Of a DNA stretch of 41,180 bases, positions 13,471-29,037 are shown in pieces; position 1 is the stretch's first letter, and every line of letters starts with the position of its first letter. Both the position numbers and the translations under genes were made by a program. This stretch comes from Elusimicrobiota bacterium. Lineage in GTDB: Bacteria > Elusimicrobiota > Elusimicrobia > UBA1565. The notes beneath the pieces are model-generated. The model was not told the origin of the DNA and ran no database searches. It worked only from the letters and a program-made list of their open reading frames with translations. The stretch lies in contig JACRDU010000077.1 of NCBI GenBank assembly GCA_016218495.1, forward strand, positions 1-41,180, read 5' to 3'.

Positions 13471-13518
13471 GGGGCACATCGTAGCATTGCGCCCATCAGG
13501 GTGGAGCAATGAGGTATA

Positions 13519-13547
13519 TTGACAAAAAAGCATATATATGCCATAGT
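13519..13547 (+). promoter_or_regulatory. Promoter of the toxin-antitoxin operon
   Basis: Perfect TTGACA at 13519-13524, a 17-nt spacer, and CATAGT at 13542-13547. The predicted start falls on the ATG at 13554, so the mRNA would be leaderless. Confidence 0.65.
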
Positions 13548-13551
13548 ATGC
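13530..13551. promoter_or_regulatory. Candidate antitoxin operator: GCATATATATGC palindrome plus third half-site
   Basis: The perfect 12-bp palindrome GCATATATATGC (13530-13541) fills the spacer between -35 and -10. Its half-site TATGC recurs at 13547-13551, 10 bp from the previous TATGC, on the same face of the helix. Such arrays are usual binding sites for RHH antitoxins that repress their own operon; binding here is inferred. Confidence 0.6.
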
Positions 13552-13553
13552 CC

Positions 13554-13778
13554 ATGAAGCGCACGATGGTCTATCTGCCCGACGACCTGAGCAAGAAGCT
13601 CAAACACCTCGCCGTCGAGAGGGAGACTTCGATGGCCGAGCTCATCCGCGAGGCCGCGGCGGCCCTGGTCGAGCGCACGGACATGTCGGCCGTGCGCGAG
13701 GCGCTCGCCGAGTACCGCGCCGACCCCGCCTCGGCCGTCCCCCTCGAGCAGTACCACCGGCGCCGCAAGAAGCGCTGA
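13554..13778 (+). CDS. Ribbon-helix-helix antitoxin (CopG/Arc type)
   Basis: A 74-residue protein. The N-terminus KRTMVYLPDDLSKKLKHLA is a CopG-type RHH strand and helix, followed by ETSMAELIREAAAALVE (second helix). The C-terminal half (about 45-74) is charged and probably wraps the toxin. It should neutralise the RelE-like protein encoded 3 bp downstream and repress the operon through the palindrome in its promoter. A longer frame from 13509 would run through the promoter, so the ATG at 13554 is preferred; an ATG at 13548 is also possible. Confidence 0.87.
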   Translation: MKRTMVYLPDDLSKKLKHLAVERETSMAELIREAAAALVERTDMSAVREALAEYRADPASAVPLEQYHRRRKKR

Positions 13779-13781
13779 GGC

Positions 13782-14039
13782 GTGTACAGGGTCCTCCTGG
13801 CGCGCCCCGTCTCGGCCCAGCTCGACGCGCTGCCCAAGGACGCCTACGAAAGGGTCCATGCCGGGCTCAAGGCGCTGGCGGGACGGCCCAGGCCGCCCGG
13901 CTGCCTCAAGGTGGAGGGCGATGTGTTCCGAATCCGCGTCGGAGAGTATCGCGTCATCTACGAGGTCTCCGACTCCGAGCGGCAGGTCCTCGTCCTGCGC
14001 GTCGCGCGTCGTAGCGAGAAGACCTACCGCGGCGTCTAG
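13782..14039 (+). CDS. RelE/ParE family toxin
   Basis: An 85-residue protein, GTG start 3 bp after the antitoxin stop. It shows the RelE/ParE fold: YRVLLARPVSAQLDALP, LKVEGDVFRIRVGEYRVIYEV and VLVLRVARRSEKTYR, with the Arg residues in the core strands and near the C-terminus that RelE enzymes use for mRNA cleavage in the ribosome. RelE-type mRNA interferase is more likely than ParE-type gyrase poison because of the RVGEYRVIYEV and C-terminal R/Y pattern, but this needs assay. Its TAG overlaps the TAG of the convergent polymerase gene within CTAG (14036-14039). Confidence 0.88.
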   Translation: MYRVLLARPVSAQLDALPKDAYERVHAGLKALAGRPRPPGCLKVEGDVFRIRVGEYRVIYEVSDSERQVLVLRVARRSEKTYRGV

Positions 14040-16231
14040 AACAGCCTGAGCTGCTCGGGCGGCGCGTCGAGGCCGTCGAGGATCTCCCGCTCGGCGCGGT
14101 CCAGGAGCTCCCCATAGCGCTTCGGGTCGTACTCCAGCGGCCCCTCCAGGAGCGCCAGAGGCGTCACCCGCCAGTCCTTGACCGGGTCCTTGGCCGAGCT
14201 GATGACGTAGCGCAGGGTCTCGCCCGGGTGCAGGGTCAGCCCCGCGCGCAGCAGCGCGCGCGCGGCGATGGCGTTGTGGGTGTCGGTCTTGTACTTGGCG
14301 GGGTCCCGCGAGAGGTGCACGCTCACCGCCAGCTCCTCGGCCGAGGCGTTCCCGTCCTTGAGGCGCTGGCGATAGCCCTCGGCGACGGCCTTGAGGCGCG
14401 GCAGCAGGGCCTTGGCGGAGGAGAGGTCGGGGGCCTGCTCCAGGAGCGCCAGCATCTCCTCCTGCATCCTCTTTAAAAGGAGCGGCGTGTCGCGCCGGCG
14501 GTAGGCCAGGCCGCGCGCCTTGAGTTCGCCGCCTTGAAAGGCACAGAAGTAGCGCGCCGGCACGCCGACGAGGCTGTCCTCCTTGGAGGGGCAGAAGCGC
14601 AGCCACTTGGTCACGCCTTCGAGGGCCACGGGGCAGCCGGCCTCATCCTCGATGGCGCGGCGCAGGGCCTCGTAGTCCGCCCCGGGGCGCCCTTCCACCC
14701 AGACCGAGTCGACCAGGGCGTGGAGCATGCGGAACCCCCGGCGCTCCACGGCCTCCTTGGCCCGCAAGAGGACCTCGCGCCCCCAGGCCGTCACGCATTC
14801 GTGGGCCTCGATCTTGCCGAAGCGGGCGTTGGAGTAGCCGAGGTAGCCGAAGCAGCAGACCAATATCCACTTGTGGGCCGAGGCCCGGGCCTTGTAGGAG
14901 GCGCGGTCCGGGTGGTCAGTCTTCGAGAGCGCCTTATAGGCCGCGCGCTTCTTGAGGAGGGGGGAGAGCACGCGCGGCACCAGGCCCGGCCGGCGGCGGC
15001 ACAGCCAGTGGCCGAGGTCGGGGACCCTGTTGTCCGAGCAGCAGGGGCAGTTCACCGTCTCCGGGGAGATGTTCTTGTCCACCATCAGGGTCGGGTACAT
15101 CGAGGCGAAGTCGAACTCGGCCGACTCCCCGTGCCAACCGGGCTCGGGCACATAGACCAGGCCCCCTTTGTCCGCGACGAGGAACTCGTCGGCGGGGCGG
15201 AAGTCCTCGGTCTGGGCCTTGGCCGAGGGGACGAGGATGCCCGAGCGCACGGCCTCCAGCATCTGCATGGAAGAGAGCGCCGTGCCGATGGTGGAGCGCG
15301 CGGCGCGCTGCACGGGCAGGGCGGCCAGGCGCGCCACCTCGAAGAGGCCGTCGGCGCCGCACTCGCGCAGCATGAAGCTGTTGCGCCGGTCCAGGTGCCA
15401 GCGGCCGCGCAGGTACACCGAGCCGTTCTGGTAGACCGCGCGTCCGTAGGTGTAGAAGCTGCGCCCGCCCTGCGCCTTGAGGCGGTGCCCTCCGTCGCGC
15501 GAGAAGGGCAGGGGGACCTTGAGGCGCTCCGAGGCCTCGGCCAAAGCGGGCAGTAGCCAGGAGTCGCCCCAGTCGGTCTCGAGGACGTCGGGGTCCGCGG
15601 CCTTCAGATGCTCCGCCAGCGTCTCGAGCTGGAGCTGGAGGGGTCCTTCGAGCTCGGCGACGCGGCCGTCCGATTCTATGAGCAGGCTGCCGCGCGGGGC
15701 GTGGTTGGGGTCGACGCGCCCGGCCGTCTCCGAGCCGGAGAGGCGCAGGCCTATCACGCGCAGCGGGGGCAGCGGGTAGTCTACCGCCCAGCGGTCGTCC
15801 TGGAGCTCGCAGCCGCGCAGCACGCCGTCCTCCAGCGCGAACTCCCCGAAGGCCAGCGGGAAGTGCCCGCGCTCGTAGTGCCAGGCCTGCAGAGGGTTGA
15901 TGTCGGCGTCGTAGAGCTCGGCGCCCAGGTCCTTGAGCTCGCCCGTCAGGCGGCGCTGGCGTGCCGGCGAGGCGCGCGCTTCCCAGACCGGGGTCAGCTC
16001 GCCCGAGAAGAGCTCCACGCCGGAGGCCTCGGCGGGAGCGGCCCCCAGGCGCGCGCGCAGCAGGGCCCGGGCCTGCTCCCCGGCCTCCCCGCGCCGGGCG
16101 CAGCGGATGACGGGGCGCCAGGGGTCGAGGCAGGAGGAGGCGCGGCCGTCCCCCCCGATGAGCCAGACGCGCACGCCCGCGTCGCCCGCCGAGGAGTCAA
16201 AGAGCCAGGCGCGGAGGTTCTTGCGGGCCAC
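14036..16231 (-). CDS. B-family DNA polymerase with apparently lost proofreading motifs, SOS-controlled
   Basis: A 731-residue protein. Motif A is FDFASMYPTLMV (about residue 372-383), followed by a Cys cluster (CPCC ... C, about 393-412) that may bind zinc. Motif B is KWILVCCFGYLGYSNARFG (about 452-470) and motif C is ALVDSVWVEG (about 504-513). Motif C has LVDS instead of DTDS, but keeps the Asp that matches the second catalytic metal ligand. In the N-terminal half the exonuclease motif expected as DIE reads IGLRL, and the second reads TDWGDSWLLP, so 3'-5' proofreading is probably gone. The GTG start has GAGGAG upstream and lies 35 nt inside the preceding small gene, so the two are translationally coupled. 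An SOS-type promoter at 16530-16558 drives both. Probable role: damage-induced DNA synthesis. Confidence 0.88.
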   Translation of the reverse strand: MARKNLRAWLFDSSAGDAGVRVWLIGGDGRASSCLDPWRPVIRCARRGEAGEQARALLRARLGAAPAEASGVELFSGELTPVWEARASPARQRRLTGELKDLGAELYDADINPLQAWHYERGHFPLAFGEFALEDGVLRGCELQDDRWAVDYPLPPLRVIGLRLSGSETAGRVDPNHAPRGSLLIESDGRVAELEGPLQLQLETLAEHLKAADPDVLETDWGDSWLLPALAEASERLKVPLPFSRDGGHRLKAQGGRSFYTYGRAVYQNGSVYLRGRWHLDRRNSFMLRECGADGLFEVARLAALPVQRAARSTIGTALSSMQMLEAVRSGILVPSAKAQTEDFRPADEFLVADKGGLVYVPEPGWHGESAEFDFASMYPTLMVDKNISPETVNCPCCSDNRVPDLGHWLCRRRPGLVPRVLSPLLKKRAAYKALSKTDHPDRASYKARASAHKWILVCCFGYLGYSNARFGKIEAHECVTAWGREVLLRAKEAVERRGFRMLHALVDSVWVEGRPGADYEALRRAIEDEAGCPVALEGVTKWLRFCPSKEDSLVGVPARYFCAFQGGELKARGLAYRRRDTPLLLKRMQEEMLALLEQAPDLSSAKALLPRLKAVAEGYRQRLKDGNASAEELAVSVHLSRDPAKYKTDTHNAIAARALLRAGLTLHPGETLRYVISSAKDPVKDWRVTPLALLEGPLEYDPKRYGELLDRAEREILDGLDAPPEQLRLF

Positions 16232-16490
16232 GGGGCTCCTCGGCCGGCGCGCCCGTCCCGCGCTCGAGCTCCAGCACGGCGCGCATCACGCCCACCAGCA
16301 TCGCCATCAGCACGGTCTCGAGCACCACCGCGCGCGAGGCCATCGCGGCCGGCGCGGCGTGGCGGCGGGCCAGGCGCCAGAGCGCGTCGAAGGCCTCCTG
16401 GTCCTCGCGCCGGAGCGCGCGCCGGAAGCTGTTCCAGTCCTCGCGCTCCATGTCGAGCGCGCGGATGATGGTGGGGAGGGTGCGGCCCAT
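16197..16490 (-). CDS. Small protein preceding the SOS polymerase, unknown function
   Basis: A 97-residue, mostly helical protein. The first 45 residues (GRTLPTIIRALDMERED ... FRRALRREDQEAFDAL) are charged, and a hydrophobic helix follows (VVLETVLMAMLVGVMRAVL). The ATG has an AGGAGAG site. It is the first gene after the LexA-type promoter, and its end overlaps the polymerase start by 35 nt. From memory, similar short proteins sit before B-family polymerases in other bacteria, which suggests an accessory subunit; I cannot confirm this by search here. Confidence 0.75.
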   Translation of the reverse strand: MGRTLPTIIRALDMEREDWNSFRRALRREDQEAFDALWRLARRHAAPAAMASRAVVLETVLMAMLVGVMRAVLELERGTGAPAEEPRGPQEPPRLAL

Positions 16491-16529
16491 GGGGCTCTCC
16501 TGCGGGGCCCACGCGGGCCGTCGCCTTGC

Positions 16530-16558
16530 AGTATAGTGTACATATGTACACTTGTCAA
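16530..16558 (-). promoter_or_regulatory. LexA-type promoter of the small protein/PolB operon
   Basis: Minus strand: TTGACA (16553-16558), 17-nt spacer, TATACT (16530-16535). The spacer holds the perfect palindrome TGTACATATGTACA (16537-16550), extendable to 18 bp. It fits TGKAC-N4-GTNCA, shared with the lexA and RecA-like promoters at the same offset from -10. Predicted start near 16523 gives a leader of about 33 nt with a Shine-Dalgarno site. Confidence 0.85.
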
Positions 16559-16596
16559 GGGCCGGGTCCCCGCATTCGCCGGCGCATGCGGACGCG

Positions 16597-23146: not shown

Positions 23147-23824
23147 ATGCGGATACGGGTTCTGGCGGTGGGCGGTCTGGCAGCGGCCCTGGCCGTGGGC
23201 GGGGGCCTGCTGTGGCGGGCCCGGCGCGCGGGCTGGGTCGAGACCAGGGTCAGCGTGCGGGACTTCGTGGCCGGCCTGGCCTCCGTGCAGCCCGACCTCA
23301 AGCTGGTGGTGGGGCGGGCCGAGTTCCTCAAGGTCATGACCGGCGAGAGCGCGAAGTCCATGCTGGGCCTGGACCTGGGCACGACCCGGGCCGCGCTGAC
23401 GGTGCCGGTACGGGTCCACTATGCGGTGGACCTGGCGCAGGAGGAGTCCGTCGTCTTCCGCTACGACCGCGCGCGGCGCGTCCTCGAAGCCGGCTTCGCC
23501 GACCCCCGGGTGCAGGCGGTGGAGGTCCTGCTCCAGGACAAGCGTCTCGTCGTCGAGCCCGGCTGGGCGCGCCTGCGGGAACGCTCGGGGCGCGCGTTGG
23601 AGGAGGCTCTGGAGCGCGGGGTCTATGACGCGGCCAAGCGCGACGCCGAGGCGCCGGCGGCGCTGGCGGCCGTGCGCGAACAGGCCCGGCCGGTCATGGC
23701 GCGCTTCCTCGAGGGTTACCTGCTGCGCGCCGGCGTCCTGCGCGTGGACGGCGGCGTCGAGGCCGTGGCGGTCCGTTTCCGCGGGGAGCCGGAGCCGGGG
23801 CTCGTCCCCTCAGGCCGACGCTAG
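23147..23824 (+). CDS. Membrane-anchored protein of unknown function (possibly DUF4230-like)
   Basis: A 225-residue protein. An N-terminal hydrophobic segment (IRVLAVGGLAAALAVGGGLLW) anchors or exports it. The mature part begins with a strand/helix (VSVRDFVAGLASVQPDLKLVV) and contains LTVPVRVHYAVDL ... VVFRYDRARRVLEAGFADPRVQ, a pattern like DUF4230 proteins, where a strand-rich domain is followed by long helices (here about 150-205). This match is from memory and weak. The ATG follows AGGGAG directly, too close for a ribosome site. The last 15 bp overlap the 3' end of the convergent RecA-like gene. Confidence 0.65.
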   Translation: MRIRVLAVGGLAAALAVGGGLLWRARRAGWVETRVSVRDFVAGLASVQPDLKLVVGRAEFLKVMTGESAKSMLGLDLGTTRAALTVPVRVHYAVDLAQEESVVFRYDRARRVLEAGFADPRVQAVEVLLQDKRLVVEPGWARLRERSGRALEEALERGVYDAAKRDAEAPAALAAVREQARPVMARFLEGYLLRAGVLRVDGGVEAVAVRFRGEPEPGLVPSGRR

Positions 23825-24346
23825 CGCGAACTCCGCGCAGCCCAGGGCGGTCAGGCTCAGCGGCCCGTCCTGTTCGGCCAGGCTGACCACCCGGTCCGAA
23901 GCGGCCAGCACGGCCTCTCCGAGGGCCGCGCGCTCGGGTGAGGTCTGGCGCTCCACGGTCAGGACCACGCAGTTGGAGGGCAGGGCCTTGAGGGCGCGGG
24001 CCAGGCGGGGAGCCAGGCGGCGCGCCTCCTCGTCCGGGAGCTCCTCGTCATAGAGGAGGGCCAGGGGGTCGGAGACCACCACGGGGTCTTCCGGACCCGT
24101 CTCCGAACCCAGGCGGCCCAGCATGGACTCGAGCTGGAAGGCGTTGAAGGGCCGGGCCAGGCGCACATGGTTGAGGACCCGGCGCGGGTCGGCGCCCGAA
24201 TCGCGGGCGGTGCGGCCCAGGCCGTAGGCGTCGAAGCGGTTGCCGGCGTCTATCCAGCGCACGCTCATCCCGCGCTCGAGGGCGGGGCAGAGGGCGGAGA
24301 GGAACCAGGCCGGCAGCCACGACGAACCGACGACGGTGTGCACCAT
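23810..24346 (-). CDS. RecA/Rad51-like protein without a clear P-loop, SOS-controlled
   Basis: A 178-residue protein. Segments line up with RadA/Rad51-type recombinase cores: VRWIDAGNRFD (compare WIDTENTF), the VLNHVRLARPFNAFQLESML block (compare VLxNIxxARAFNSDHQ), and the Walker B-like DPVVVSDPLALLY. The Walker A position reads VVGSSWLPAWF, with no GKT, so ATP binding is doubtful. It is much shorter than RecA (about 350) and ends after the Walker B helix plus two strands. AGGAGG precedes the ATG. The promoter carries the same LexA-type operator as the polymerase operon, so it probably works in the damage response, perhaps like ImuA or SulA-like RecA relatives. The YbjN-like gene lies 60 bp upstream on the same strand. 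It is convergent with the 23147 gene, overlapping it by 15 bp. Confidence 0.75.
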   Translation of the reverse strand: MVHTVVGSSWLPAWFLSALCPALERGMSVRWIDAGNRFDAYGLGRTARDSGADPRRVLNHVRLARPFNAFQLESMLGRLGSETGPEDPVVVSDPLALLYDEELPDEEARRLAPRLARALKALPSNCVVLTVERQTSPERAALGEAVLAASDRVVSLAEQDGPLSLTALGCAEFALASA

Positions 24347-24370
24347 AGGGCCTCCTGAGGCGATGGCCCT

Positions 24371-24399
24371 AGTTTAGTGTACAAGTGTTCAGTTGTCAA
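24371..24399 (-). promoter_or_regulatory. LexA-type promoter of the RecA-like gene
   Basis: Minus strand: TTGACA (24394-24399), 17-nt spacer, TAAACT (24371-24376). The spacer holds TGTACAAGTGTTCA (plus strand, 24378-24391), a TGNAC-N4-GTNCA dyad with one asymmetric position. Its offset from -10 is the same as in the polB and lexA promoters. Predicted start near 24364. Confidence 0.8.
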
Positions 24400-24406
24400 G
24401 GCCCGG

Positions 24407-24868
24407 CTAGAACGTGTCGGCCCCCATCGTCTTCTCCATGTCGTCGGCCAGCTTCGCGGTGACGAAGCAGGCCGCCGCGAACTCGGCGGGGTCCATGGTC
24501 TGGGCGATGTGGGTCTCGATGACGCCGAGGTAGTCGGCGCCGTCCACCTGGTCGATGGCCCAGGCGCCGTGCGGGATCTTGGAGTTGCGCCGCAGCAGGT
24601 CGTTGGCGGTCTTGGCGCCGATCTCCTGGCCGGCCGGCATCTTGAGGGCGGGGGAGAAGAAGGAGACGATCAGGTGCCCCGCCCCGGTCTTGCCCAGCGG
24701 CCGCACGAAGGTGTTCTGCGCCCGGCCCTCGCCCATGTCGTAGGGGACGATGACGAGCTCCGGCCCGGAGACCCGGACCTTGAGGTTGGACTTCGCGGCC
24801 AGGCCCTGTATGAAGTCCGCGAAGTTCACGCTCTTGGGCCCTTCCACCTCGCTGCGTTCGAATCCCAT
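24407..24868 (-). CDS. Small YbjN/type III chaperone-like protein, function unknown
   Basis: A 153-residue protein, no signal peptide. It starts with a helix (SVNFADFIQGLAAK) and continues with strands LKVRVSGPELVIVPYDM and AGHLIVSFFSPALK, then KIPHGAWAIDQVDGADYLGVIETHIA and a C-terminal helix DPAEFAAACFVTAKLADDMEK. The alpha-beta layout and the last helix recall YbjN/Tir-chaperone-like domains; this is a fold-level guess. An AGGGGGAA site precedes the ATG. It follows the M48 gene by 8 bp, so the two form an operon. Confidence 0.75.
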   Translation of the reverse strand: MGFERSEVEGPKSVNFADFIQGLAAKSNLKVRVSGPELVIVPYDMGEGRAQNTFVRPLGKTGAGHLIVSFFSPALKMPAGQEIGAKTANDLLRRNSKIPHGAWAIDQVDGADYLGVIETHIAQTMDPAEFAAACFVTAKLADDMEKTMGADTF

Positions 24869-24876
24869 GGTTCCCC

Positions 24877-26103
24877 CTATTCGAAGATGCTCAGCACGCG
24901 CTCCACGAACGCCGGGTCGGTGGCGAAGGCCGCCGCCATCTCGGCCAGGACCGCCCGCTCCGCGGGCTTGACCACCTGGTCGGCCCGGGCGACCACGATC
25001 AGCTTCTGCAGGAGGGCGTGCCGGTCCGCGGCGGCGAGCCCCGCGCAGGCCTTGGCGTTCACGAGGAAGCGCTCCCGCGCGCGGGCGGCCGGGTCGGCCC
25101 CGGCGGCCAGCTCCGTGGAGGCGGCCGCCAGGGCCGCGGGCTCGGCCCAGGCCGCCATGGCCGCCAGCTCGGCCGGGTCGATCCCGCCGTCGCAGGAGGC
25201 CAGCCACAGCCCGCCCCACAGGGCCGCGTCGCGGGCCGGAGCGGAGCCGGCCTCGGCCCGCTCGGGCTCCATCGCGCGCAGCAGCTCCTCGACGCGGCGC
25301 TCGGCCTCCTCGGCGCTCACGCGCGCGGTGCCGCCGCCCGCGGCCTCGGCGAAGGGGCGCGAGTCCCAGAACTGGGCCAGGGCCGCCACGCGCAGCGGGC
25401 TGAAGGGATGGCTGGAGAAGAGCTCGGAGGCGTCGGCCGAGGCGGCCAGGGACTGGATGTCGCGCATCTGGGCCACATACTCGTCGACGCTGAAGCGCAG
25501 GATGGGCTCCGAAAGGCCGGAGGACAGCTTCATCAGAGCCTTGGTGGCGTCCTGCAGGCTCTTGCAGGCGACCAGCCCCACGCGGTCGCAGGAGATCTCC
25601 GCGCGGCGGTTCCAGGCCATCAGGCGCAGGGCCTGGCGCGGGTCGAGCCGCCCCTCCTGGCGCAGCAGCCAGGCGGCGGGCAGGGCATGGTGGCCGAAGG
25701 CGGCGTGCGCCGCCTCGTGGGCGACGACGGAGCGCAGCTCGCCCTGCGAGAGCCGCTCGAGCAGGCTCGAGCTGAACAGCATCAGGATGGGGCCTTCGCC
25801 GTAGTCGATGCAGGCGGCGTTGGCCAGCGGCTCGTCGCGCACGAAGACCTCGACGCTGCGCCCGCCCAGCCCGCACAGCGTCAGGCATTCCCGCACGTCC
25901 TTGACCAGGTCCGGGATCATCGCCGCGCTGACCCGCATCCCCTCGGCCAGGAAGCGCCGGCGGGGGGCATCGAGGCCGCCCGAGCGCCTGAGCTCCTCTG
26001 AGAGGGTCTTTATGGCCGGGTCGGCGCAGAGCTCGGCCTGCATGCGCCGGTCGGAGGCGAGGCGCAGGGCCTCGAAGGCGGCGCGTTCTTCCGCGGACTC
26101 CAC
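24877..26103 (-). CDS. M48 family metalloprotease with C-terminal TerB-like domain
   Basis: A 408-residue cytoplasmic-looking protein. The zinc motif is HEAAHAAFGHH (about residue 129-139), with the third ligand in RRAEISCDRVG (about 165-175) and the M48 C-terminal block SSHPFSPLRVAAL (about 230). Unlike HtpX it has no TM helices. From about 285 a helical domain with DGGIDPAELAAMAAW and ADQVVKPAERAVLAEMA resembles TerB/tellurite-resistance modules. GTG start at 26103 is supported by a TTGACG-17-TAAACT promoter ending 6 nt upstream, which predicts a leaderless mRNA. The YbjN-like gene is 8 bp downstream. Similar M48-TerB proteins are widespread but their substrates are unknown. Confidence 0.87.
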   Translation of the reverse strand: MESAEERAAFEALRLASDRRMQAELCADPAIKTLSEELRRSGGLDAPRRRFLAEGMRVSAAMIPDLVKDVRECLTLCGLGGRSVEVFVRDEPLANAACIDYGEGPILMLFSSSLLERLSQGELRSVVAHEAAHAAFGHHALPAAWLLRQEGRLDPRQALRLMAWNRRAEISCDRVGLVACKSLQDATKALMKLSSGLSEPILRFSVDEYVAQMRDIQSLAASADASELFSSHPFSPLRVAALAQFWDSRPFAEAAGGGTARVSAEEAERRVEELLRAMEPERAEAGSAPARDAALWGGLWLASCDGGIDPAELAAMAAWAEPAALAAASTELAAGADPAARARERFLVNAKACAGLAAADRHALLQKLIVVARADQVVKPAERAVLAEMAAAFATDPAFVERVLSIFE

Positions 26104-28416: not shown

Positions 28417-29001
28417 TCAGTAGCGGCGCAGCAGGCCTACGACCTTGCCGGCCACCTGAAAAGGACCTCGGATGGGCTCGTAGGCCGGGTTCTCGGACTC
28501 GAGGGCGGCCTGCCCGGCCTTGCGGCGCAGGCGCTTGACCACGCCCTCCTCGCCGACCAGGGCCACGACGATCTCGCCGTCGCGCGCGTCGTCCTGGCGG
28601 CGCACCTGCACGAGGTCGCCTTCCAGGATGCCCGCCCCGACCATGCTGTCGCCCTTGACCCGAAGCAGGTAATCCGCGCCCCGGCGCGCGTCGCGGTCGA
28701 GCGTCACATGCCCTTCGACGTCCTCCGCGGCGATGACGCCCGAGCCCGCGGCCACCGCTCCCAGGATGGGCAGCTCGTTGGGGCTGGAGGCCAGGGACAT
28801 CCCACGGCTGATGGCGTCGGTGCGCTTGAGCAGGCCCGCGGACTCCAGCACCCTGAGGTGGTAGGCCACCGAGCTCGGCGAGGTGATGCGCAGGCGCCGA
28901 CCGATCTCGCGGATGGAGGGGGGGAAGCCCTTCTCCTCCACGCACTGGGCGATGAAATCGAGGATGCGGCGCTGCAGCTCGGTGACTTCTTTAGTGGACA
29001 T
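28417..29001 (-). CDS. lexA: LexA repressor (SOS regulator, S24 autopeptidase)
   Basis: A 194-residue protein. N-terminal winged HTH: ILDFIAQCVEEKGFPPSIREIG (about 13-34) and RITSPSSVAYHLRVLE (about 38-53). The cleavage site is Ala85-Gly86 (AVAAGSG), the nucleophile Ser119 (KGDSMVG) and the base Lys156 (GVVKRL), almost the E. coli numbering, so self-cleavage stimulated by RecA should work. Its own promoter carries two LexA-type dyads, one between -35 and -10 and one over the ATG, giving autoregulation. The ATG at 29001 is 7 nt after the -10, so the mRNA is probably leaderless; a frame upstream would run through the promoter. The histidine kinase gene ends 50 bp upstream. Confidence 0.96.
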   Translation of the reverse strand: MSTKEVTELQRRILDFIAQCVEEKGFPPSIREIGRRLRITSPSSVAYHLRVLESAGLLKRTDAISRGMSLASSPNELPILGAVAAGSGVIAAEDVEGHVTLDRDARRGADYLLRVKGDSMVGAGILEGDLVQVRRQDDARDGEIVVALVGEEGVVKRLRRKAGQAALESENPAYEPIRGPFQVAGKVVGLLRRY

Positions 29002-29037
29002 AAGTCCAATTGTAGTGGACGGATGTCCTCTTGTCAA
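28995..29037 (-). promoter_or_regulatory. lexA promoter with two LexA-type operators
   Basis: Minus strand: TTGACA (29032-29037), 17-nt spacer, TACAAT (29009-29014). Operator 1 (29016-29029, core GGAC-N4-GTCC) sits in the spacer; operator 2 (28995-29008, TGGACATAAGTCCA) covers the start codon. Their centres are 21 bp apart, two helical turns. Operator 1 has the same offset from -10 as in the polB and RecA-like promoters. Confidence 0.85.

Follow-up and report, generated by a model that had tools for sequence, protein, structure and literature searches.

Within the window, i.e., the whole stretch of 41,180 nucleotides of Elusimicrobiota DNA analysed here, the minus strand carries (i) iRadA (23810..24346), encoding a RadA/Rad51-like core of 178 residues devoid of both a Walker A motif and an N-terminal domain, as judged from the open reading frame (ORF), an AlphaFold2 (AF2) model, Foldseek, profile comparison with the PDB and conservation, (ii) PPB2 (16197..16490), encoding a small protein of 97 residues with a conserved N-terminal MGRT arm, recognised from its ORF and homologues, (iii) PolB2 (14036..16231), encoding a B-family DNA polymerase of 731 residues whose GTG start overlaps PPB2 (Pfam DNA_pol_B, 4.8e-27; type B polymerase in NCBIfam), and (iv) lexA (28417..29037), encoding the SOS repressor (NCBIfam TIGR00498, 1.3e-53). 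The iRadA ORF extends from an ATG at 24346, with CAGGAGG as ribosome-binding site, to a stop at 23810, while the remainder of the interval for which the initial annotation had proposed a RecA/Rad51-like protein without P-loop, namely 24347-24399, is non-coding and corresponds to the promoter. The length of 178 residues given there and the peptides quoted in its support, i.e., VVGSSWLPAWF, WIDAGNRFD, LARPFNAFQLESML and VVVSDPLALLY, are all found in this ORF.

The iRadA protein is conserved in 17 of the 57 genomes of the order at 42-100% identity; the named records of its relatives are Elusimicrobia/Elusimicrobiota MAGs, and none was found in viral contigs. Fold prediction, put forward in the initial annotation as a check that might return no RecA-like core, gave a RadA-like core, the AF2 model (12-member alignment, pLDDT 87.8, pTM 0.84) matching RadA, Rad51 and Dmc1 in the PDB by Foldseek with E-values from 2.7e-7 and a probability of 1.00, and 50 out of 50 among the matches listed being RadA/Rad51/Dmc1-type entries. 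Over the query, TM-scores take moderate values of 0.50-0.63, in keeping with a reduced core. A single iRadA sequence searched with phmmer matches Pyrococcus-type RadA chains in the PDB (E=1.4e-4), and with the family profile RadA is reached at 1.7e-7, RadA and Rad51 leading the matches and RadB being resembled weakly. The similarity to RadA exceeds chance, and iRadA is nearer to RadA/Rad51 than to RecA. At the level of motifs, W-I-D-A-G-N-x-F of iRadA aligns with W-I-D-T-E-N-T-F of RadA, and L-A-R-P-F-N with Y-A-R-A-F-N. In Pfam and NCBIfam, no model matches iRadA alone, those of the SulA family included, and the candidate SulA was rejected; Pfam Rad51 matches weakly in 4 of the 12 family members.

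Respective to the ATPase site, the place of the P-loop is occupied by GSSWLP, so that the Walker A Lys/Thr is absent, and G-K-S/T is found at this place in none of the 12 aligned members. In the AF2 model, the N-terminal helical domain is absent and the protein opens directly with the first strand of the core (residues 3-7), which passes via GSSW into a helix (residues 11-24). The Glu of IDTE(N/G) is replaced, the position being Gly in nearly all members, and the Walker B Asp93 is invariant. The length of the protein is insufficient for the usual DNA-binding loops, and by eye no beta-clamp motif was seen in it. Taken with the RadA/Rad51/Dmc1 fold, the missing Walker A motif bears out the RecA/Rad51-like protein without P-loop of the initial annotation, and the loss of ATPase residues marks iRadA as a seemingly catalytically dead protein of RadA type.

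The SOS-type promoter claimed for this gene is present at 24366..24400 (minus strand) as a sigma-70-like TTGACA-17 bp-TAAACT arrangement, the 17-bp spacer of which contains the LexA-type box GAACACTTGTAC. A second promoter (16523..16560, minus strand), TTGACA-17-TATACT with the palindromic LexA-type box GTGTACATATGTACAC, lies upstream of PPB2-PolB2. The combined pattern of promoter and box occurs at these two sites in the window and at none in 300 shuffled sequences; genome-wide and at no more than 2 mismatches, it is found at iRadA, at PPB2 and just upstream of recA. When up to 3 mismatches are tolerated, LexA-type boxes are not enriched genome-wide (11 versus 19 in the control), and only the 2-mismatch sites, i.e., PPB2, iRadA and recA, look meaningful. 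Among 17 related loci, 14 have a G[AT]AC-N4-GT[AT]C box, mostly as CGAAC-N4-GTTCG, which in two of them (L005 and L006) stands about 690 bp upstream of iRadA and therefore, to judge by their counterparts L060 and L066, before lexA. In the genome G002, PPB2 has a box of its own, TTGACAACTGTACACTTGTACAGTAAACT. From these boxes, both the iRadA and the PPB2-PolB2 promoters are probably under LexA control. As for lexA of the window, its true start is likely the ATG at 29001. The lexA promoter (28996-29028, minus strand) contains two GGAC-N4-GTCC repeats, GGACATCCGTCC and GGACTTATGTCC, the second overlapping this likely start codon; the boxes of iRadA and PPB2 are different, reading GTAC-N4-GTAC.

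The order and strand of iRadA, PPB2 and PolB2 are kept in the window, with a gap of 7.3 kb holding genes on the opposite strand, and iRadA and PPB2-PolB2 are not in one operon but have separate promoters. In sister genera, the genes are contiguous and on the same strand, and lexA directly precedes iRadA in several of these loci (L060, L061 and L066). In G002, the iRadA and PPB2-PolB2 halves are found on different contigs. The usual iRadA-PPB2-PolB2 operon is split in this genus, each half carrying its own LexA-type box. On the other side of iRadA, a gene encoding an M48 peptidase domain and a TerB-like domain in one protein (24877-26103, minus strand) and an ORF (24407-24880) sit between an OPT gene and iRadA, which in G002 directly follows the OPT gene. 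The 3' end of PolB2 is abutted by a small RHH antitoxin-like gene and a ParE toxin-like gene (13509-14039, plus strand).

The functional link with the PolB gene advanced in the initial annotation, together with genome co-occurrence as a check on it, was upheld by the distribution of the genes as well as by the contiguous block of the sister genera. Over the 57 genomes of the order, iRadA and PolB2 are both present in 16, iRadA only in one (G001) and neither in 40 (p=3e-13). Over 295 genomes of the phylum, the corresponding figures are 14 with both, two with iRadA only (G001 and G125), one with PolB2 only (G280, a fragment at the start of a contig) and 278 with neither, i.e., a Fisher p=6e-21 in which phylogenetic dependence is ignored. 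Co-occurrence of iRadA and PolB2 in the phylum is near-perfect.

Both partner genes exhibit features of a described system. The PPB2 start, MGRTLPT, is common to homologues across the order and to three more distant ones, MGRT being invariant and a hallmark of PPB2 (PMC11791011). In PolB2, motif A reads DFASMYP and the DxD motif is degenerate, HALVDS standing at its place and its first Asp consequently missing; the C-terminus is a QLRLF beta-clamp motif. The sole PADLOC match, a homing-endonuclease model on the polymerase domain of PolB2, was judged non-specific. PolB2 also contains EDFRPADEF followed by ADKGGL, namely an FxxA motif (FRPA) at residue 344 and DK at 354; over 14 PolB2 sequences, no change is seen at Phe344 or Arg345 and almost none at Ala347, with D(K/R)GG following. 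The FxxA motif is the known docking signature of Rad51, RadA and BRC. In PolB2 of the window, it lies shortly before D(K/R), at the place assigned to a Rad51-type oligomerisation motif (Timinskas et al., 2025; PMC11791011). The AF2 model of PolB2 is too weak for use in the palm and in the docking loop, where pLDDT is about 30-45.

The iRadA subunit of the PolB2 mutasome was described by Makarova et al. (2014; PMC4104785), and the complex was modelled as one of iRadA, PolB2 and a PPB2 trimer in which iRadA binds PolB2 via the Rad51-type oligomerisation motif (Timinskas et al., 2025; PMC11791011). In our reading, to which a probability of about 0.92 is given, iRadA of the window is the inactive RadA subunit of such a translesion-synthesis (TLS) complex, with two promoters released by LexA, FxxA docking and a tether to the clamp. 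Observed here are the genes and their motifs, the fold, the promoter boxes and the pattern of co-occurrence, whereas the geometry of the complex and the TLS role come from the published models and from Sulfolobus genetics cited in PMC11791011; LexA control and the function in this organism are proposed. Upon DNA damage, LexA would release both promoters, iRadA being expressed from one and PPB2 plus PolB2 from the other. The FxxA motif of PolB2 (FRPADEF) would mimic the self-association motif of RadA/Rad51 and thereby dock PolB2 onto iRadA, which would neither bind nor hydrolyse ATP and would have no need to polymerise on DNA. The N-terminal MGRT arm of PPB2 would be wedged, close to the DNA, between iRadA and PolB2, and the QLRLF tail of PolB2 would hold the complex on the beta-clamp for primer extension past lesions. 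The link between RecA filaments and the polymerase that had been suggested at first finds no support and was set aside, the published model having iRadA on PolB2 and the FxxA motif being present in PolB2.

Against this reading stand the 7.3-kb gap with its opposite-strand genes, unlike the published bacterial pattern, the two genomes with iRadA and no PolB2 match, and the poor PolB2 model at the docking loop. In G001, rated 100% complete, neither PPB2 nor PolB2 is detectable in the genome; its iRadA (L071, G001:C35, 156-734) has retained a LexA-type box and is syntenic with the window together with three of the window genes that follow. In G125, where PolB2 was not found in the genome, lexA is immediately followed by an iRadA-like gene and then by unrelated genes (L099, minus strand 2722-1357), and the protein has extra residues inserted before its IDSGNSF motif. 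Since iRadA is kept in both genomes, it may have a PolB2-independent SOS role touching LexA, RecA or the replication fork, the split locus being a step towards it, which is considered unlikely.

Less likely still is that iRadA works on its own to modulate RecA or LexA, either against filaments or tethering them in the manner of SulA or ImuA, its link to PolB2 being one of co-regulation only. Such a role would suit the separate transcription unit of this genus as well as G001 and the lexA-iRadA pair of G125, but it is at odds with the near-perfect co-occurrence with PolB2 and with the operon shared with PPB2-PolB2 in sister genera. The sequences of the exceptions also argue for loss of a partner over a partner-independent role. 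Of the iRadA proteins, that of G001 has the most private changes at columns invariant in the rest, namely 5 as against 0-2, and, with G088, G214 and G125 added to the comparison, Phe67 of LARPFN is the sole column invariant in all compared PolB2-bearing genomes and changed in both PolB2-less ones (to Ser and Leu). This would fit the LARPFN loop forming the FxxA-binding side of iRadA, and is suggestive only because the column was chosen post hoc and two genomes are concerned.

Hardly any weight is left for an accessory of ImuA type serving an ImuB/DnaE2 mutasome, the initial annotation having looked to ImuA and SulA for analogues. A RecA-fold protein under a LexA-type box near a B-family polymerase gene may call ImuA to mind, but the family proved to be a different one, with similarity to RadA/Rad51 rather than to RecA, and the reading is already contradicted by the partner genes, the partner polymerase being of the B-family. 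Moreover, no Y-family DNA polymerase (PF00817), and hence no ImuB, was found in the source genome, which is 95% complete, the same search giving matches in 11 of the 14 genomes used as controls; the closest analogue is iRadA. Equally improbable is an active RadA/RadB-like recombinase paralogue with an unusual ATP site, for which the RadA-like core, the invariant Asp93 and the weak RadB similarity could be invoked, against the lack of G-K-S/T, the Gly at the position of the catalytic Glu, the missing N-terminal domain and a length too short for the DNA loops.

For the inactive RadA subunit of a PolB2 complex, novelty is modest. The class of iRadA proteins (arCOG07763/04294/08101) and its partnership with PolB2 are already published (Makarova et al., 2014, PMC4104785; Timinskas et al., 2025, PMC11791011), and "Elusimicrob-" is absent from the main text of the latter, supplements lying outside this scope. 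What is added, and was not found in the main texts of the papers covered, consists of a detailed account of the Elusimicrobiota members, a split locus having two LexA-type promoters, the FxxA reading and the PolB2-less relatives. An archaeal-type PolB2 mutasome is thereby placed in Elusimicrobiota genomes, one of them without detectable Y-family polymerase; in that genome, PolB2 may therefore carry much of translesion synthesis and be a main translesion enzyme.

In comparison with known systems, the RecA-like accessory with predicted LexA control is shared with the ImuA/ImuB/DnaE2 mutasome, from which the present system differs in its B-family partner, no ImuB/Y-family polymerase being detected here. 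As in the Pol V mutasome of Escherichia coli (UmuD'2C-RecA), a TLS polymerase would dock a RecA-family protein by filament-type and beta-clamp motifs (PMC11791011), but Pol V combines a Y-family polymerase with an active RecA and another small subunit. Archaeal RadA and eukaryotic Rad51 have in common with iRadA the core fold and the aligned IDxxNxF and ARxFN motifs, whereas iRadA lacks Walker A and the N-terminal domain and does not have the length needed for the usual DNA-binding loops. The closest resemblance is with the published iRadA, i.e., a RadA/Rad51 core with ATPase residues lost and the N-terminal domain absent, travelling with PPB2 and PolB2 and, in bacteria, with lexA nearby; likewise, the beta-clamp motif is present in only one of PolB2 and iRadA, here PolB2, its presence in both being rare. 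The iRadA, PPB2 and PolB2 genes are adjacent in most published loci, not all (PMC11791011), and unlike the clustered bacterial ones, iRadA of the window lies 7.3 kb away under a LexA-type promoter of its own.
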